A stretch of DNA of 64,000 nt from Claveliimonas bilis (GTDB taxonomy: Bacteria; Bacillota; Clostridia; Lachnospirales; Lachnospiraceae): contig NZ_AP027742.1 in NCBI RefSeq assembly GCF_030296775.1, positions 1,302,001-1,366,000 on the forward strand, in the 5' to 3' direction. Positions 31,154 through 46,963 of the stretch are shown here, one piece after another (the first letter of the stretch is position 1; each line of letters begins with the position of its first letter). The notes under the pieces are model-generated. The model worked only from the letters and a program-made list of their open reading frames with translations, was not told the origin of the DNA and did no database searches. The translations under genes were made by a program, and so were the position numbers.

Positions 31154-32389
31154 ATGGAGAATAAAAATACGAAAGTAACACAGATTCCGAAAAGAGGCCG
31201 CGGTGAGCACAGAGGCCGGTCAGCGCAGGCCAGAGAGAGTATGGGGGCAAGAATGAAAAGCGGTATGAAATATTTTGACTACAGCCTTGTGGCGGTTATT
31301 GTATTTCTTATATGCTTTGGTCTGGTCATGCTCTACAGTGCCAGCGCTTACTCGGCAGAAGTCAATTATTCGGGGGACAGTATGCATTATTTTAAAAGGC
31401 AGCTGTTTTTCTGTATCGTGGGAGGCGCGGGAGCATATGTCGTATCGCTGTGGGATTATCATAGAGTTGCCAAGCATGCGAAAAAAATCTTTTTCTTTTC
31501 TATTTTCCTGATGGCTCTTGTAAAGACGCCGCTTGGAGTGGAAGTAAACGGGGCGACAAGATGGATTGCCCTTCCGTTTGGACAGCAGCTTCAGCCTGCC
31601 GAGGTGACGAAAATAGCTGTCATTGTTTTTGTCCCGGTCGTTATATGCCAGATGGGGAAAGAGATCCGGACTCTGGCAGGAGTGATTCGGGCAATCAGCT
31701 GGGGATTGCTGGCAGCAGGCTGTGTATATTTTCTGACAGAAAATTTGAGTACAGCAGTTATCGTGCTGGGAATTACCTGTATGATGGTCTTTATTGTTCA
31801 TCCCAAGACAGCTCCGTTTATTGCCCTGGTTGTTCTGGGAATCATTGCTCTTGTAGTGGGGGCGACCATCCTGGGAAGTATGATACAGGCGGGTGATCTG
31901 GGAGATAATTTCCGGCTTCGGCGTATCATTGTATGGCTGGACCCGGAAAAACATGCTTCTGATTATGGCTATCAGGTCGTACAGGGGCTTTATGCTATTG
32001 GTTCCGGCGGCTTTTTTGGGAAAGGTCTTGGAAACAGTACGCAGAAACGACTGATACCAGAAGTGCAAAATGACATGATCCTTTCGGTTATCTGCGAGGA
32101 GCTGGGAGTGTTTGGGGCCATTATGGTCCTGGTTCTGTTTGGCCTTTTGCTGTACAGGCTTATGGTAATTGCACAGAATGCTCCGGATATGTATGGAGCT
32201 TTAATTGCCAGCGGTATCTTTTCCCACATTGCGCTTCAGGTATTTCTGAATGTTGCGGTTGTAATTAATTTGATCCCCAATACCGGAATTACGCTGCCAT
32301 TCATCAGCTATGGAGGGACATCATTACTTTTTCTGATGTTGGAAATGGGTGTCGCGCTTGGAATTTCAAGAAAAATAAAGATGCAATGA
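31154..32389 (+). CDS. FtsW/RodA/SpoVE-family peptidoglycan glycosyltransferase
   Basis: A SEDS-family polymerase in the cytoplasmic membrane, 411 aa with a basic ~40-residue cytoplasmic N-terminus and about ten transmembrane segments. Landmarks are FGLVMLYSASAYSAE, NGATRWIALPFGQQLQPAEVTK, LTENLSTAVIVLGI, GYQVVQGLYAIGSGG, QNDMILSVICEELG and IPNTGITLPFISYGGTSLLFLMLEMG. It stands outside the dcw cluster, which has its own SEDS gene at 41923. This one may therefore serve elongation (RodA) or sporulation (SpoVE), which motif reading cannot separate. Confidence 0.92.
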   Translation: MENKNTKVTQIPKRGRGEHRGRSAQARESMGARMKSGMKYFDYSLVAVIVFLICFGLVMLYSASAYSAEVNYSGDSMHYFKRQLFFCIVGGAGAYVVSLWDYHRVAKHAKKIFFFSIFLMALVKTPLGVEVNGATRWIALPFGQQLQPAEVTKIAVIVFVPVVICQMGKEIRTLAGVIRAISWGLLAAGCVYFLTENLSTAVIVLGITCMMVFIVHPKTAPFIALVVLGIIALVVGATILGSMIQAGDLGDNFRLRRIIVWLDPEKHASDYGYQVVQGLYAIGSGGFFGKGLGNSTQKRLIPEVQNDMILSVICEELGVFGAIMVLVLFGLLLYRLMVIAQNAPDMYGALIASGIFSHIALQVFLNVAVVINLIPNTGITLPFISYGGTSLLFLMLEMGVALGISRKIKMQ

Positions 32390-33678: not shown

Positions 33679-33710
33679 AAAGAACAGGAATTTTTTCCTG
33701 TTCTTTTTTT
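33679..33710 (+). terminator. Rho-independent terminator before mraZ
   Basis: AAAGAACAGGAA pairs with TTCCTGTTCTTT over TTTT, then further T's. Confidence 0.92.
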
Positions 33711-33770: not shown

Positions 33771-33799
33771 TTGAAATCAATAGTAAAGTGGTTTACAAT
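33771..33799 (+). promoter_or_regulatory. Sigma-A promoter of the mraZ/dcw operon
   Basis: TTGAAA (33771-33776), 17-bp spacer, TACAAT (33794-33799), 82 bp before the mraZ ATG. It overlaps the first MraZ boxes. Confidence 0.75.
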
Positions 33800-35883: not shown

Positions 35884-37743
35884 ATGACAAAAAAAACTAT
35901 GCATCGTTTGAGAAAAAAATTCCCTAAATTTATGCAGAAAAAGCTAGTCATCCTCTATTTGGGGATTATACTAGCTTTTGTTTTTCTAATAGGAAGAATT
36001 ACCTATATTAATGCATCTGACGGGGAAGAATATACGAAAATTGTTCTGGACCAGCAGCAGTATGACAGCAGGGTCATTCCCTATAAGCGGGGAGATATTG
36101 TAGACCGGAACGGCACGAAAATTGCCACCAGTGAAAGAGTGTACAATGTCATACTGGATGTGAAGACTATGCTGAGTGATGAAGATTATGTGGAACCTAC
36201 AAAGCAGGTCCTGAAAGACTGCTTTGGGATAGAGGAAGAGGAAGTAGATGCTCTGATCGAAGAGTCGCCTGACAGCAGATACAGCGTGCTGAAAAAAGGA
36301 ATTGACTATAATACGGCCAAAGAATTTGAAGCCATTGATGAAGATGATGAAAATTATCCGGATGTAAAAGGAATATGGCTGGAATCAGATTATGTGCGCA
36401 CTTATCCCTATAATACGCTTGCGAGTGATGTTATTGGATTTACAGTAGACGGAAACGTGGGAAACGGAGGCATAGAAGGCTACTATAATACGATACTAAA
36501 TGGGACAGATGGAAGAGAATATGGTTATCTTGATGGCGGGACTTCTGTAGAACAGACTGTAAAAGAACCAATTAATGGGAAAACAGTGGTTTCTACGATT
36601 GATGTACAGGTGCAGAGTATTGTAGAAAAATATATCAAACAATTCAACGATGAAAGAAAGAATAATGCAACTGCCGGCGAGGGAAGCAAAAATACAGCTG
36701 TCATGATCATGAATCCGCAAAATGGAGAGATCCTTGCCGAAGCCAGCTATCCGAATTATGATCTGAATAATCCCAGAGACCTGTCAAGCTACTATACACA
36801 GGAACAGCTGGATGCCATGTCGGATGAAGAACAGCTGGATGCCTTAAACTCTCTGTGGAAAAATTTTTGTGTCAGCGATACTTACGAGCCTGGGTCGACG
36901 ATAAAACCTTTTACTGTAGCAGCAGCTTTAGAGACAGGGGCACTGAACGGGGATGAAACCTTTTACTGTGAAGGAAGCCTGCATATTGGAGGATATGACA
37001 TTCATTGTATCAATCGGGAGGGACACGGAACACAAACCTTGAAAGAAGCGGTGGAAAATTCCTGCAATGTGGCCCTTATGCAGATTGGAGAAAAAATCGG
37101 CGCCGAGGATTTCATTAAATATCAGCATATATTTGGATTCGGAGAGCTGGCGGGGATCGATCTTCCCGGCGAAGCCGCTACAGAGGGGCTTTTATATACA
37201 GTAGATAACATGGATGAAACCAGTCTTGCGACCAACGCATTTGGTCAGAACTTTAATGTAACAATGACACAGATGCTGGCAGGTTTTTGTTCGCTTATTA
37301 ACGGCGGAGAATACTATGAGCCTCACATTGTAAAACAGATACAGGATGAAAATGGAAATGTAGTGGAAAATGAAGAGCCGGTTCTTGTGAAACGAACAAT
37401 TTCGGAAGAGACAAGTACTCTCGTAAAAGATTATATGAGGGGAGTTGTTCAGAATGGAAGCGGTAAGCTGGCGGATCTGGAAGGCTATGAAGTAGGAGGA
37501 AAGACTGGTACAGCAGAGAAACTTCCAAGATCAGAAGGAAAGAACCTGGTATCTTTTATTGGATATGCACCCCAGGAAAATCCGGAGATTGCAATTTATG
37601 TTGTGATTGATGAGCCAAATGAGTACGACCAGGCCCAGAGTTCTCTGGCGGTGCAGATGGCAAGTGATATTATGAAAGAAATTTTCCCGTATCTGGGGAT
37701 CTCCAAGACATCTGAAACAGCGGACGATACGGCAACGCAATAA
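35884..37743 (+). CDS. Class B penicillin-binding protein (division transpeptidase)
   Basis: A peptidoglycan transpeptidase, 619 aa. A basic cytoplasmic N-terminus precedes one transmembrane helix (about 19-39). The pedestal domain has RGDIVDRNGTKIATS. The transpeptidase domain has SxxK in PGSTIKPF (~340), SxN in NSCNVA and KTG in GGKTGTAEKLPRS. It lies 9 bp after ftsL, the position of ftsI/pbpB, so it is the likely septal PBP2B. No PASTA domains are present. A strong terminator follows, although the operon continues with a second PBP. Confidence 0.94.
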   Translation: MTKKTMHRLRKKFPKFMQKKLVILYLGIILAFVFLIGRITYINASDGEEYTKIVLDQQQYDSRVIPYKRGDIVDRNGTKIATSERVYNVILDVKTMLSDEDYVEPTKQVLKDCFGIEEEEVDALIEESPDSRYSVLKKGIDYNTAKEFEAIDEDDENYPDVKGIWLESDYVRTYPYNTLASDVIGFTVDGNVGNGGIEGYYNTILNGTDGREYGYLDGGTSVEQTVKEPINGKTVVSTIDVQVQSIVEKYIKQFNDERKNNATAGEGSKNTAVMIMNPQNGEILAEASYPNYDLNNPRDLSSYYTQEQLDAMSDEEQLDALNSLWKNFCVSDTYEPGSTIKPFTVAAALETGALNGDETFYCEGSLHIGGYDIHCINREGHGTQTLKEAVENSCNVALMQIGEKIGAEDFIKYQHIFGFGELAGIDLPGEAATEGLLYTVDNMDETSLATNAFGQNFNVTMTQMLAGFCSLINGGEYYEPHIVKQIQDENGNVVENEEPVLVKRTISEETSTLVKDYMRGVVQNGSGKLADLEGYEVGGKTGTAEKLPRSEGKNLVSFIGYAPQENPEIAIYVVIDEPNEYDQAQSSLAVQMASDIMKEIFPYLGISKTSETADDTATQ

Positions 37744-37750
37744 TATGAAT

Positions 37751-37802
37751 AACCTCACAAAAGCAGTAATAAAGTATAAAAAGGCTTTTGTGAGGTTTTT
37801 TT
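37751..37802 (+). terminator. Terminator hairpin between two PBP genes, abutting the next start codon
   Basis: AACCTCACAAAAGC (37751-37764) pairs perfectly over 14 bp with GCTTTTGTGAGGTT (37784-37797). The T-run ends at 37802 and the next gene's GTG begins at 37803. The only ribosome-site-like sequence (GTGAGG) is inside the 3' arm of the hairpin. Confidence 0.85.
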
Positions 37803-39527
37803 GTGCGTAGTAAGACATATAATAAGAAGAAAATCCTGATCGTTTTTCTGTGCGCAGTTTTTATCATTCTGTTTTTGATGGGGAGACTTGTCTACCTGAT
37901 GGTATTTGACGCCGAATATTATCAGGAGAAAGCGGAAGCCCTCCATGAAAGAGAGAGGGAAATTAAGGCGGCAAGAGGAGAGATCATAGATGCTTCGGGA
38001 AATATTCTTGCGACAAACCGCACGGTGTGTACGATTTCTGTGATCCATAGTCAGGTAACAGATCCTGAAGAGGTGATCACGGCTCTTTCCCAGGCTTTGG
38101 ATATGGAAGAGGCCTCTGTGCGTGAGAAGGTGGAGAAGGTTTCAGCTCTGGAAAGGATTAAGACAAATGTGGATAAAGAAATCGGTGACCGGATTCGGGA
38201 GATGAATCTTAATGGTGTAAAAGTGGATGAGGACTTTAAACGTTATTATCCCTATGATGAGCTTGCATCTACAGTGCTGGGATTTACCGGGGGAGATAAC
38301 CAGGGGATTATCGGCCTGGAGGTAAAATATGAAGAATACCTGAAAGGACAGAACGGGCGGATACTGACTACTACAGATGCAAGAGGCATAGAGCTTAAAG
38401 GAGTGGCAGAAGATCGGGTGGAGCCGGTTCCCGGGAATACCCTCCGGATCACATTGGACTATAATGTACAGATGTATGCACAGCAGATGGCGGAAAAGGT
38501 GATGGAAGAGAAACAGGCCGATGCAGTATCCGTTCTTCTTATGAATCCACAGAATGGGGAGATCATTGCAATGGTAAATGTTCCGGAATTTAATCTCAAT
38601 GATCCCTTCACCTTAAATACAGGAGAAGATACATCGGGACTTTCAGAAGAGGAAAAACAGGATAAGCTGAATCAAATGTGGAGAAACCGCTGTATCAATG
38701 ATACCTATGAACCCGGGTCGACTTTTAAGATCATTACAGCCTCTGCCTGTCTGGAGGAGGGAGTTGTTTCCCTGGACGATACGTTTCAATGTCCGGGATA
38801 CCGGATTGTGGAAGACAGGAAGATCCGGTGTCATAAAGTGGGGGGACACGGACAGGAGACATTTGTGGAAGGGGTGCAAAATTCCTGCAATCCTGTATTT
38901 ATGGATATCGGTCTTAGATTAGGAGCAGATAAATTTTATGATTATTATGAAAAGTTTGGTCTTCTGAATTTGACTGGAGTAGATCTTCCGGGAGAGGCGG
39001 GGACGATCATGCATAAAAAGGAAGATATTGGAACGGTGGAGCTGGCAACGATGACGTTCGGGCAGTCCTTTCAGATTACGCCTATTCAGCTTGCCTCCAC
39101 AGTAAGTTCCATCATTAACGGCGGAGTGAGGGTAACGCCTCACATTGGGAAAAGCGTGATCTCTTCAGATGGGAAAACAGAGGAAGTTTTAGGAGCTGAA
39201 AAGGGGGACAGAATCCTTTCAGAAAAAGTTTCTGGTCAGATGAGGGAGCTTTTGGAGGGAGTCGTACGGGAAGGATCCGGGAAGAACGGAGCGGTGGAGG
39301 GTTACCGTATCGGAGGAAAGACAGCTACGTCGCAGACTCTTCCGAGAAGCGCAAACAAATATATATCCTCATTTCTGGGCTTTGCACCGGCTGACAACCC
39401 GCAGATACTGGGAATGTGTATTATTTATAATCCCCAGGGAATTTATTATGGAGGTACGATCGCCGCACCGGTAATGCGGGAGATTTTTGAAAATGTACTT
39501 CCCTATCTTGGCATTGAAAAAGAATAA
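37803..39527 (+). CDS. Class B penicillin-binding protein (SpoVD/FtsI-like)
   Basis: The product is 574 aa and starts with GTG 37803. No other start precedes the transmembrane helix (about 10-32), so GTG is required for a full-length protein. The pedestal has RGEIIDASGNILATN. The catalytic SxxK is in PGSTFKIITA (~302), SxN in NSCNPVF. The third motif is GGKTATSQTLPRS, with KTA where most class B PBPs have KTG. It lacks PASTA domains. Two class B PBPs in tandem in a dcw cluster suggest one for vegetative septation and one for sporulation. Which is which is inference. Confidence 0.92.
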   Translation: MRSKTYNKKKILIVFLCAVFIILFLMGRLVYLMVFDAEYYQEKAEALHEREREIKAARGEIIDASGNILATNRTVCTISVIHSQVTDPEEVITALSQALDMEEASVREKVEKVSALERIKTNVDKEIGDRIREMNLNGVKVDEDFKRYYPYDELASTVLGFTGGDNQGIIGLEVKYEEYLKGQNGRILTTTDARGIELKGVAEDRVEPVPGNTLRITLDYNVQMYAQQMAEKVMEEKQADAVSVLLMNPQNGEIIAMVNVPEFNLNDPFTLNTGEDTSGLSEEEKQDKLNQMWRNRCINDTYEPGSTFKIITASACLEEGVVSLDDTFQCPGYRIVEDRKIRCHKVGGHGQETFVEGVQNSCNPVFMDIGLRLGADKFYDYYEKFGLLNLTGVDLPGEAGTIMHKKEDIGTVELATMTFGQSFQITPIQLASTVSSIINGGVRVTPHIGKSVISSDGKTEEVLGAEKGDRILSEKVSGQMRELLEGVVREGSGKNGAVEGYRIGGKTATSQTLPRSANKYISSFLGFAPADNPQILGMCIIYNPQGIYYGGTIAAPVMREIFENVLPYLGIEKE

Positions 39528-39581
39528 GAAATGAAGTATACTGTTTTAAGCTGAATAACAAAAGAGATAAGAGGTGTATCT

Positions 39582-40550: not shown

Positions 40551-41909
40551 ATGGAAAAAACGGTACTGGTATTCGGACTTGGGATCAGCGGGATCGGAGC
40601 AGCGAAGCTTTTAGAAAAGCGAGGGGCTGATGTGATCTTATATGACGGCAATGAAAAACTCAATAAGGAAGCAACACTTAAAAAGATGGGAGAAGGCACA
40701 AAGGCACGGATTATTACCGGTTCTCTTCCGGAGGAAGTGATGGATGAACTGGATCTTGTGGTCATCAGTCCCGGAGTGCCGACGGATCTTCCAGTCGTTC
40801 AGAAAATGAGAGAGAAAAAGATTGAGATCATGGGAGAAATTGAGCTTGCCTATCTGTGCGGAAAAGGAGAAGTCCTTGCCATTACAGGGACGAATGGCAA
40901 GACTACCACAACTGCTCTGTTGGGAGAGATTATGAAAAACGCTTCAGACAGTGCATTTGTAGTGGGAAATATTGGAAATCCTTATACGACTGTAGCGGAA
41001 GATACCAGGGAAGATTCTGTCGTTGTGGCAGAGATGAGCAGTTTTCAGCTGGAGACGATTCACACATTCCGTCCCAGAGTATCGGCCATTTTGAATTTGA
41101 CGCCGGACCATTTAGACAGGCATCATACCATGGAGGCATATATTCAGGCAAAGATGAATATTGCCTCGAACCAGACGGAAGAAGATTTTTGCATCTTAAA
41201 CTATGAGGATGAGGTGCTTCGCAGATTTGCTGCTGAAGTGAAGGCGAAAGTTTTTTTCTTCTCCAGTGTGCATAAGATGGAGAGAGGCATTTATCTGGAT
41301 AACGGGAATATAATTTATAAGAACCCGGATGATGGAAATGCCGAAGGTACGCTGATCTGTAATGTAGATGAACTGAAACTGCTTGGTGTTCACAATTATG
41401 AGAATGTCATGGCGGCATCGGCTATGGCCGCTGTGTATGGAGTGTCCCTTGATATTATAAGAAAGACGCTTCGGGAGTTTGCAGGCGTGGCCCATAGAAT
41501 AGAATTTGTAGCGGAAAAAGATGGAGTCGCCTATTACAATGATTCCAAGGGGACAAATCCGGATGCGGCTATCAAAGGAATCCAGGCAATGAGGCGCCCT
41601 ACCGTTTTGATTGGAGGGGGATATGACAAAAATTCAACTTACAAAGAATGGATTGAAAGCTTTGACGGCAAGGTTAAACTTCTGGTCCTTCTTGGGGCTA
41701 CAAGGGAAAAGATTGCAGAAGAGGCCAGAGAGTGCGGTTTTACAGATATTGCTTTTGCCGATACATTTGAGGAGGCTGTCCTTACGTCCGTAAAGGCGGC
41801 GCAGCCGGGAGACGCAGTGCTGCTGTCGCCGGCGTGTGCAAGCTGGGGAATGTTTAAGAACTATGAGGAACGAGGAGATAAGTTCAAAGAGATTGTAAAT
41901 TCCCTATAA
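40551..41909 (+). CDS. murD: UDP-N-acetylmuramoylalanine-D-glutamate ligase
   Basis: It adds D-Glu to UDP-MurNAc-L-Ala with ATP in the cytoplasm. The product is 452 aa. VFGLGISGIGAAKLL is the N-terminal Rossmann motif, followed by ISPGVPTDLP, the ATP loop ITGTNGKTTTTAL, SSFQLETI, LNLTPDHLDRH, AHRIEFV, NDSKGTNPDA and LLSPACASWGMFKNYEERG near the end. GGAGG lies before the ATG. Confidence 0.97.
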   Translation: MEKTVLVFGLGISGIGAAKLLEKRGADVILYDGNEKLNKEATLKKMGEGTKARIITGSLPEEVMDELDLVVISPGVPTDLPVVQKMREKKIEIMGEIELAYLCGKGEVLAITGTNGKTTTTALLGEIMKNASDSAFVVGNIGNPYTTVAEDTREDSVVVAEMSSFQLETIHTFRPRVSAILNLTPDHLDRHHTMEAYIQAKMNIASNQTEEDFCILNYEDEVLRRFAAEVKAKVFFFSSVHKMERGIYLDNGNIIYKNPDDGNAEGTLICNVDELKLLGVHNYENVMAASAMAAVYGVSLDIIRKTLREFAGVAHRIEFVAEKDGVAYYNDSKGTNPDAAIKGIQAMRRPTVLIGGGYDKNSTYKEWIESFDGKVKLLVLLGATREKIAEEARECGFTDIAFADTFEEAVLTSVKAAQPGDAVLLSPACASWGMFKNYEERGDKFKEIVNSL

Positions 41910-41922
41910 GGAGAGAACAAGA

Positions 41923-43008
41923 TTGCCAGATTCAGTCAAAAAAAGAAAGTATGACTATACACTTCTTACGGCGCTGTTCTTGCTGCTGCTTATCGGACTT
42001 GTGATCCTGTACAGCACCAGCGCATACAATGGAGAGGTAAAGTTTCATGATTCCTTTTACTATCTGAAGAAGCAGGTGTTTGCCACCAGTCTGGGCATTG
42101 CAGGTATGTTTCTGATGGCGCAGATTGATTACCGGAGATTGCGGAAATTTGCAGTGCCGGCCTATCTTGCAGCAGTGCTTTTGTCTGTTGCAGTGCTTTT
42201 GGTGGGAGATGAGTATAATGGGTCCAAAAGATGGTTGTCTTTGGGCCCTTTTTCTTTTCAGCCCTCTGAATTTGCGAAAATAGCAGTCATTCTTTTTCTT
42301 GCTGCTGTCGTGACAAAGAATGCAGACAAAATGGGGCAGATGAGAACGCTTCTGAAGATCATGCTCAGTGTTCTTCCTATTGCAGGTCTGGTAGGCGCCA
42401 GCAATTTGAGTACAGCCATTATTATTCTCGGAATTGCGGTTACTCTTGTCTTTACGGCAAGTCCCAAATACGGGCAGTTTATCTGGATGGGAGTGATAGG
42501 CTGCGGATTTATGGCTGTGTTTCTTGCGTTGGAGAGCTACCGGCTGGAGCGGCTGGCAATCTGGAGAAATCCGGAGGCATACGAGAAGGGATATCAGACC
42601 CTTCAGGGGCTGTACGCCATAGGATCAGGCGGACTCTTTGGGAGAGGACTGGGGGAGAGCGTACAGAAGCTGGGCTTTGTTCCGGAGGCTCAAAATGATA
42701 TGATATTTTCCATCATCTGTGAGGAGCTTGGCCTTTTTGGAGCAGGATTTATTCTCCTTCTTTTCCTGATTCTGATCTGGCGTTTCTTTCGGATCGCATC
42801 CCATGCGGAAGATCTTTTCGGAGCATTGATTGCAGCCGGAGCTATGGCTCATATGATGATCCAGGTGATTTTGAATATTGCGGTTGTGACAAATACCATT
42901 CCAAATACAGGTATTACACTTCCCTTTATCAGCTACGGAGGAACATCGGTTGTGTTCCTTTTGATGGAAATGGGGGTTGTGCTAAGTGTGTCATCTCTGG
43001 TAAAATAA
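41923..43008 (+). CDS. ftsW: FtsW-type SEDS peptidoglycan glycosyltransferase of the dcw cluster
   Basis: The product is 361 aa and begins with TTG 41923 behind AAGGAGAG; no ATG precedes the first transmembrane segment. It has about ten membrane segments and the SEDS motifs GLVILYSTSAYNGE, NGSKRWLSLGPFSFQPSEFAK, GASNLSTAIIILGI, GYQTLQGLYAIGSGGLFGRGLG and IPNTGITLPFISYGGTSVVFLLMEMG. The location between murD and ftsQ indicates the divisome polymerase; in spore formers the gene at this place is often called spoVE. It is clearly related to the SEDS gene at 31154. Confidence 0.93.
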   Translation: MPDSVKKRKYDYTLLTALFLLLLIGLVILYSTSAYNGEVKFHDSFYYLKKQVFATSLGIAGMFLMAQIDYRRLRKFAVPAYLAAVLLSVAVLLVGDEYNGSKRWLSLGPFSFQPSEFAKIAVILFLAAVVTKNADKMGQMRTLLKIMLSVLPIAGLVGASNLSTAIIILGIAVTLVFTASPKYGQFIWMGVIGCGFMAVFLALESYRLERLAIWRNPEAYEKGYQTLQGLYAIGSGGLFGRGLGESVQKLGFVPEAQNDMIFSIICEELGLFGAGFILLLFLILIWRFFRIASHAEDLFGALIAAGAMAHMMIQVILNIAVVTNTIPNTGITLPFISYGGTSVVFLLMEMGVVLSVSSLVK

Positions 43009-45228: not shown

Positions 45229-45284
45229 GCAGCCATGACAGATTGTGGATTTTTTCGACCACAGTTGACATGGCTGCTTTTTTT
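45229..45284 (+). terminator. Rho-independent terminator after ftsZ
   Basis: GCAGCCATG (45229-45237) pairs with CATGGCTGC (45269-45277), with GTGG/CCAC pairing inside the loop, followed by TTTTTTT. Confidence 0.9.
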
Positions 45285-45350
45285 GTCGAAAAAATCTGTT
45301 TTCCTTCTAACAGTATCTGACAAATTCTGAACCCTTCTTTTCTTTATAAT
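45282..45350 (+). promoter_or_regulatory. Spo0A-controlled spoIIG-type promoter
   Basis: There is a Spo0A box TTTGTCGAA at 45282-45290 and an inverted one, TGACAAA, at 45318-45324. The -35 CTGACA (45317-45322) lies 22 bp from the -10 TATAAT (45345-45350). A -35 separated by 22 bp and overlapped by a Spo0A box is the distinctive design of the Bacillus subtilis spoIIG promoter. Confidence 0.75.
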
Positions 45351-46222: not shown

Positions 46223-46963
46223 ATGATGATAAAAATAGCTGTGCCAAATCAATTTAAACTGAAAGTAATGCCGAATTTCCGTACGTTTTTTTTCCCGGAT
46301 AAAAAAGACGTACACTATATCGGAGGATCCGATATTCTTCCTGCTCCGCTGGAAGTGGAAGAGGAAAGCCGCGCGATCGCAATGCTGGGAACAGAGGAAG
46401 ACAAAAGCGCCCGCAAAATATTGATTGAACATAACCTCAGGCTGGTAGTGTATATTGCAAAAAAGTTTGACAATACAGGCGTTGGAGTGGAGGATCTGAT
46501 ATCGATCGGGACGATTGGGCTGATCAAGGCAATTAATACATTTGATCCGGGAAAAAATATCAAACTGGCCACCTATGCATCCAGATGTATTGAAAATGAG
46601 ATCTTAATGTATCTTAGAAGAAATAACAAGACACGCATGGAGGTTTCGATTGACGAGCCTTTAAATGTGGACTGGGATGGAAATGAGCTCCTTTTGTCGG
46701 ATATTCTCGGAACAGAGGAGGACACCATATATCGGGACCTGGAACAGGAAGTAGAGAAAAAACTTCTTGTGAAAGCTCTCGGGAGGCTGTCCGGCCGGGA
46801 GCAGACGATCATAAAAATGAGATTTGGTATCGGTATGCCGGATGGGGAAGAGAAGACACAGAAAGAAGTGGCAGATATGCTGGGGATTTCTCAGTCTTAC
46901 ATCTCCAGACTGGAGAAGAAAATTATGCAGCGGCTGCGAAGGGAGATGGTAAAATATTCATAG
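46223..46963 (+). CDS. sigE: Sporulation sigma factor E, pro-form
   Basis: The early mother-cell sigma factor, made as a membrane-bound precursor. The product is 246 aa. The first ~30 residues ([20 protein letters not shown]) are the pro-sequence removed by SpoIIGA. Region 2 has [38 protein letters not shown] and [16 protein letters not shown]. Region 4 has [14 protein letters not shown] and [27 protein letters not shown] precedes the ATG. It would drive cotJABC at 29852. Confidence 0.97.

Follow-up and report, generated by a model that had tools for sequence, protein, structure and literature searches.

Background

In Bacillus subtilis, a hairpin of 20 or more pairs has been proposed to block translation of the sigG RNA that reads through from PspoIIG; this hairpin cannot form in RNA made from the sporulation promoter of sigG itself (PMC5942855). 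A similar arrangement has been described for the phage T4 genes e, soc, 49 and I-TevI, in which a late promoter lies within the hairpin that holds the SD: early read-through RNA sequesters the SD, and RNA from the late promoter does not carry the 5' strand of the hairpin (PMC3014915, PMC2988022). The element reported here, upstream of a spoVD-like gene of Claveliimonas bilis, shares this logic, but it differs from both precedents. The sigG promoter is read by sigma-F and sigma-G, whereas the spoVD-upstream motif is of sigma-E type; the accessible text on sigG mentions no terminator role, whereas here a T-tract terminator is merged into the element and the arms covary across many genera (PMC5942855). 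The T4 genes follow the early and late timing of a phage, and their reports, in the parts available, mention no merged terminator, whereas the spoVD element would answer to a bacterial developmental sigma factor (PMC3014915, PMC2988022).

Like any intrinsic terminator, the element has a stem followed directly by a U-tract; unlike an ordinary one, its 3' arm is also an SD, its U-tract is also the SD-to-start spacer, and its loop holds a promoter-like motif. In B. subtilis, spoVD follows the vegetative PBP gene pbpB. It is a spore-specific PBP gene under sigma-E, as we propose for the gene studied here, and it differs in that its promoter is reported to be repressed by SpoIIID (PMC517825); Clostridioides difficile spoVD is listed among SigH-controlled genes (PMC7438776). 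A literature search, whose coverage left most subscription journals outside, turned up no paper describing such an element in Lachnospiraceae, either at spoVD or at spoIVA. The logic is known from sigG, T4 e and I-TevI; what looks new is that it is merged with an operon terminator at spoVD.

The locus in C. bilis

The window, that is, the whole 64-kb stretch of C. bilis DNA analyzed here, carries a division cluster in the order mraZ (from 33882), rsmH (34335), an FtsL-like gene (35320, a weak match), a first PBP (35884-37743) and a second PBP (37803-39527), followed by mraY (39582), a gene at 40551 that we take to be MurD-like, an FtsW-type gene (41923), ftsZ (43986), spoIIGA (45426), sigE (46223) and sigG (48793). 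The features that matter for the argument are the following.

35884-37743, + strand: first PBP of 619 aa, the gene directly preceding the element, ending in TAA at 37741-37743
37747-37751, + strand: predicted -35, GAATA, of a sigma-E-type promoter, from motif conservation; touches the base of the 5' arm
37751-37764, + strand: 5' arm of the hairpin, AACCTCACAAAAGC, within the promoter spacer
37765-37783, + strand: hairpin loop, 19 nt, between the arms
37768-37775, + strand: loop sequence AATAAAGT, the predicted -10, at a gap of 16 nt from the -35 and starting with A where C is canonical
37782-37783, + strand: place where transcription is predicted to begin, 7 nt 3' of the -10
37784-37797, + strand: 3' arm of the hairpin, GCTTTTGTGAGGTT, contains the SD
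37790-37795, + strand: GTGAGG, the SD that serves the second PBP; part of the 3' arm, with 7 nt between it and the GTG
37796-37802, + strand: T7, U-tract of the terminator and also SD-to-start spacer
37803-37805, + strand: GTG start codon of the second PBP, directly after T7
37803-39527, + strand: second PBP, SpoVD-like, 574 aa, GTG start; best match TIGR02214
39514-39542, + strand: sigma-A-like promoter TTGAAA-17-TATACT, spanning the spoVD stop, 5' of mraY
46223-46963, + strand: sigE (TIGR02835, 373.3 bits, cut-off 348.6), within the same 64-kb window

The two arms form 14 perfect pairs out of 14, beginning 7 nt after the stop codon of the first PBP. The segment 37752-37802 folds at -18.4 kcal/mol (z -5.95), a value that none of 200 shuffled sequences equaled, and a stable stem-loop of 14 bp with T7 directly after it is what is expected of an intrinsic terminator. 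Perfect stems of at least 11 bp with a loop of 3 to 25 nt and a T-rich tail are found only three times in a + strand scan of the 64 kb, the one upstream of spoVD being the longest. The hairpin was absent from a simple terminator scan because that scan is limited to loops of at most 8 nt. A known RNA family was set aside as an explanation, as Rfam gave no match above the gathering score in the window.

A reading made earlier from this sequence alone had described a perfect 14-bp terminator ending at 37802 and fused to the GTG start at 37803, with the only ribosome site buried in the hairpin. The perfect pairing, the fusion and the buried SD all stand; the end point has to be amended, since the stem closes at 37797 and it is the T-tract that reaches 37802.

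A hairpin conserved by compensatory change

For close relatives of the locus we used the best 80 of 232 confirmed loci, and the element lies directly 5' of the second PBP in all 80. Seventy-nine of these are listed loci and the 80th, [Ruminococcus] torques (L085), was found by pattern at L085:3753; promoter-rule, start-codon and SD-opening counts refer to the 79, with L085 left out. All counts given in this report treat related genomes as independent, and L252 and L253 enter none of them. The start codon chosen is ATG in 66 of the 79, GTG in 10 and TTG in 3, and the relatives support GTG 37803 as the start of the second PBP. At least five T follow the SD in all of the 77 loci, among the 79, where they could be counted.

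A MAFFT alignment made from sequence only, with 72 distinct close loci (L073, L085 and duplicates left out), has standard pairs in 97.5% of 1007 cells, and changes on both sides occur at 9 of the 14 pairs (146 cells). These pairing and double-change values were reached by none of 500 shuffles, and sliding the partner by one to three columns as a control lowered pairing to 36-59%. RNAalifold, given no structure, recovered 12 of the 14 pairs. Searched against the C. bilis genome itself, a covariance model of the element matched at the spoVD locus only, where the palindrome gave a hit on each strand; the search scored 150 of 1943 candidates. The hairpin is not a matter of chance.

The loop is conserved as strongly as the stem, with ATAAC at the left edge and three loop positions among the invariant columns. 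Apart from one gap in L035, insertions and deletions fall only 3' of the predicted -10, a pattern that fits a promoter whose spacing is held while its distance to the gene drifts. The sequence-only reading had missed both the conservation of the loop and the candidate promoter in it.

A promoter-like motif in the loop

To look beyond close relatives, we used 200 genomes of the family, one per genus and each at least 90% complete, of which 133 have a strong second-PBP match; removing seven partial matches and the C. bilis genome itself, which is counted with the close set, leaves 125 family loci. The conserved pattern fitted to the loop and its left flank, NMATA-16-HATAnnnT, is found in 73 of the 79 close loci, where shuffles average 0.6, and in 78 of the 125 family loci, where they average 2.3; looser patterns of this kind were set after the alignment had been viewed. 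A scoring rule finds a site in all 79 close loci, with a gap of 16 in 78 and of 15 in one, and finds none in 16 of the 125 family loci. Three family loci (L139, L146 and L147) have no stable hairpin, yet the -10, CATATACT, is present.

An external standard is offered by spoIVA, a known sigma-E gene, for which 30 upstream regions (L221-L250) were sampled from 133 genomes and 24 could be analyzed. A gap of 16 is the commonest at both spoVD and the spoIVA promoters of the family, so that the two share their geometry. With a matrix built only from 24 spoIVA sites, 52 of the 79 close regions and 61 of the 125 family regions score above the 95th shuffle percentile, and only 12 and 27, respectively, above the 99th. 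The sigma-E consensus has a -10 beginning with CATA together with a consensus -35; the window does not show this combination, its -10, AATAAAGT, beginning with A. With the consensus written strictly (CATAnAnT as -10, [GCT][AC]ATA as -35), matches number 0 of 79 in the close loci, 12 of 125 in the family loci and 13 of 30 in the spoIVA regions. We therefore speak of a promoter of sigma-E type rather than of a proven sigma-E promoter. Two other assignments were set aside: a sigma-H promoter with GAAT as its -10, since many members have GCATA or TCATA at that place, and a sigma-70-type promoter in the loop, since the promoter scan does not list one. On balance the loop reads as a sporulation promoter of sigma-E type, with the factor and the start site being predictions, and the product of sigE at 46223-46963 is the sigma factor that we propose would read it.

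The ribosome site in two predicted transcripts

Folding predictions were compared for RNA that reads through the element and RNA that begins at the predicted start. In the window, the SD is predicted to be paired in read-through RNA, where it is 3% unpaired and costs 14.4 kcal/mol to open, in agreement with the earlier proposal that read-through sequesters it; in RNA from the predicted start it is computed to be 21% unpaired, at 4.0 kcal/mol. Median opening costs in the 79 close loci are 11.5 (read-through) versus 3.4 kcal/mol (own start), with a difference of at least 5 in 71 of them; in the 108 family loci that could be analyzed the medians are 9.2 and 3.1 kcal/mol, with a difference of at least 5 (hereafter the lock) in 57. 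The sigma-A-like mraY promoters of the close loci, taken as a control, give 2.6 versus 2.9 kcal/mol and a difference of at least 5 in 0 of 76, and in a scan of the genus the lock accompanies only 4 of the 24 promoter matches of CATA type and 1 of the 9 that are strictly sigma-A. The lock is therefore no general trait of promoters, nor of all CATA-type promoters. In L321 and L323, we observed a CATA-type promoter with CCTCC just 5' of it, GAGGAGG as SD and an ORF starting MTPV, in which the read-through SD is predicted to be locked.

Distribution in the family, order and class

Within the family the T-tract goes together with the hairpin: at least five of the 8 nt that follow the SD are T in 47 of the 57 family loci with a lock, versus 3 of the 51 without. 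In Lachnospiraceae the element is thus probably both terminator and lock, to judge from its sequence. Five loci of another family of the order, f20 (L268, L271, L274, L276 and L277), have the same nesting with a hairpin that is not followed by a T-tract, so that SD locking can stand alone. At the order level 29 loci were fetched and 26 read, L255 being of the same family; 22 were analyzable, and the lock is found in 10 of the 22. At the class level, a match was present in 73 genomes, and of the 29 loci read from these, 28 lie outside the order. A promoter-like site is present in 6 of the 29, and the lock in none of these six, the figure covering promoter-bearing loci only (the remaining 23 comprise 22 weak cases and one without a start); outside the order, the corresponding numbers are 5 of 28 and 0 of 5.

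The second PBP and sporulation

The best family for the second PBP is TIGR02214, the SpoVD equivalog, at 561.5 bits; this lies under the curated cut-off of 688, and we therefore call the protein SpoVD-like. Only transpeptidase and dimerization domains were found in it, and it is identical to its counterpart in C. bilis c-25 (L007). TIGR02214 is also the best NCBIfam match of the first PBP, at 454.7 bits, under the same cut-off. Among the 200 family genomes, SpoIVA is present in 133, as many as have the strong second-PBP match: both occur in 131 genomes, either one alone in 2 and 2, and neither in 65 (compared by genome handle, with a Fisher test that treats genomes as independent). A gene that occurs almost only together with SpoIVA supports, by comparison, the split between vegetative and sporulation PBP synthesis that had been suggested from the sequence.

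The window contains two FtsW/SpoVE/RodA-type genes (31154-32389 and 41923-43008), of which only the second exceeds the FtsW cut-off; one of the two may work with the SpoVD-like PBP in sporulation.

Three proposed signals in one stretch

Sequence and comparison establish a hairpin, its covariation, a promoter-like motif at fixed spacing and co-occurrence with a sporulation marker. We consider it probable that 37747-37802 combines three signals, a terminator, an SD lock and a sigma-E-type promoter, with the use of sigma-E, the start site, termination and the translation block all being predicted parts of the proposal. The vegetative operon, with the first PBP as its last gene, would have its intrinsic terminator in this element. 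In read-through RNA, the SD of the SpoVD-like PBP would be paired with the 5' arm, and this PBP would be poorly translated. As DNA, the same stretch would be a mother-cell promoter, with its -35 at the base of the 5' arm and its -10 inside the loop. Sigma-E polymerase would start at about 37783, 3' of the 5' arm, and a leader of about 20 nt without that arm could not form the hairpin, so that there would be no termination there and the SD would be more open.

The sequence-only reading held that the second PBP should be expressed only when the hairpin is prevented or from an internal start. The sigma-E-type promoter in the loop favors the second of these routes, and with a start inside the element no hairpin-melting factor would be needed. 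A promoter and start site between 37784 and 37803 had been named as evidence against that reading, and our predicted start of about 37783 comes very near to this; its biological conclusion nevertheless survives.

If the upstream operon ends at the hairpin, the genes 3' of spoVD need a promoter of their own. A promoter 5' of mraY scoring at least 9 of 12 is present in 76 of the 79 close loci, in the form TTGAAA-17-TATACT in 73 of these, and persists even where its position is shifted by about 100 nt. In the window, the sigma-A-like promoter at 39514-39542 would restart mraY and the genes beyond, and terminator and restart together would insulate spoVD as a sporulation cistron inside the division cluster. 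At the other end of the cluster, a T-tailed 12-bp hairpin (33679-33706) is followed by a sigma-A-like promoter, TTGAAA-17-TACAAT (33771-33799), before mraZ, and this is likely to be the start of the vegetative operon.

Other explanations give weight to part of these data. In stem and T-tract the element looks like any normal terminator, and tight spacing is common, so that plain compaction might have brought an ordinary terminator against the next gene, with the 3' arm serving by coincidence as part of its SD; the loop would then hold no promoter, and inefficient read-through would make the second PBP. We give this little credence: it does not account for a conserved loop and fixed spacing, for the motif that persists where the stable hairpin is missing (L139, L146, L147), for f20 hairpins that have no T-tract, or for a second PBP that tracks SpoIVA. 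Translational coupling deserves slightly less. Ribosomes finishing the first PBP would melt the base of the hairpin, prevent termination and open the SD, so that both PBPs would be made in growth; the nearby stop in the window (7 nt 5' of the arm) suits this, as do 11 of 78 close loci in which the stop overlaps the arm region or lies inside it. Across those 78 loci, however, the gap from stop to arm runs from -22 to 276 nt (median 17), which is too loose for such coupling, whereas the promoter spacing is fixed; coupling also leaves the conserved loop and the sporulation link unexplained.

That the loop is highly conserved and AT-rich could also point to a binding site, in RNA or as a DNA operator, at which a protein or ligand controls termination. 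We regard this as the least likely of the explanations considered, given that the window has no Rfam match, that the conserved positions agree with a promoter at constant distance, and that spoIVA regions share promoter and nesting but not the arm sequence. A milder departure would keep the lock and a real promoter and have another sporulation or transition factor, sigma-K or sigma-H, read it. The -10 without its canonical first C and the listing of C. difficile spoVD under SigH (PMC7438776) lend this some color; it is still unlikely in our view, because the spacing is that of the family's spoIVA promoters and B. subtilis spoVD is a sigma-E gene (PMC517825).

If the three-signal reading is right, it would show how a spore-only PBP gene surrounded by an essential division cluster can stay silent in growth, by DNA sequence alone and with no repressor. 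One short stretch would then be under triple constraint, as terminator, translation lock and promoter, with natural covariation to follow, and in gut Lachnospiraceae the element would let the sporulation control of genes be read from the sequence.

Similar layouts at other sporulation genes

Many of the spoIVA regions repeat this arrangement with arms of unrelated sequence: CCCCCTTG is followed by a loop that contains CATATACTGTA, then by the SD CAAGGGGG, TATTTTT and ATG. The SD-opening difference is at least 5 kcal/mol at 18 of the 24 analyzable sites, as computed for this promoter-in-hairpin layout, and shuffling the 5' arm region costs 16 of the 24 at least 3 kcal/mol of it. By eye, some spoIIIAA genes of the genus (L284, L285, L289 and L292) show TTGTCCAC/GTGGACAA, or a near form, around CATATATAT, and this short inverted repeat around the CATATATAT box overlaps the SD region. 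In the C. bilis genome itself, no strong hairpin was seen by eye at spoIVA or spoIIIAA (L288), and use of the device therefore varies gene by gene. Upstream of SpoIID, no promoter was found under the offset used.

We lean, with reserve, towards a recurring device of Lachnospirales, in which a mother-cell promoter lies in a hairpin whose 3' arm is the SD of the gene, so that only RNA made by the sporulation sigma factor would be well translated. Its sites would be spoVD, spoIVA and some spoIIIAA genes. In Lachnospiraceae it would be joined to a terminator and in another family not, and it would make key spore genes leak-proof where their surroundings are vegetative.

Two further observations concern this genome. 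A SpoIID-like match contains one in-frame TAG, both here (G000:C1:1053338-1054183) and in a genome of the same species (G001). Directly 3' of ftsZ, a perfect inverted repeat of 12 bp with a 25-nt loop occupies 45248-45296.
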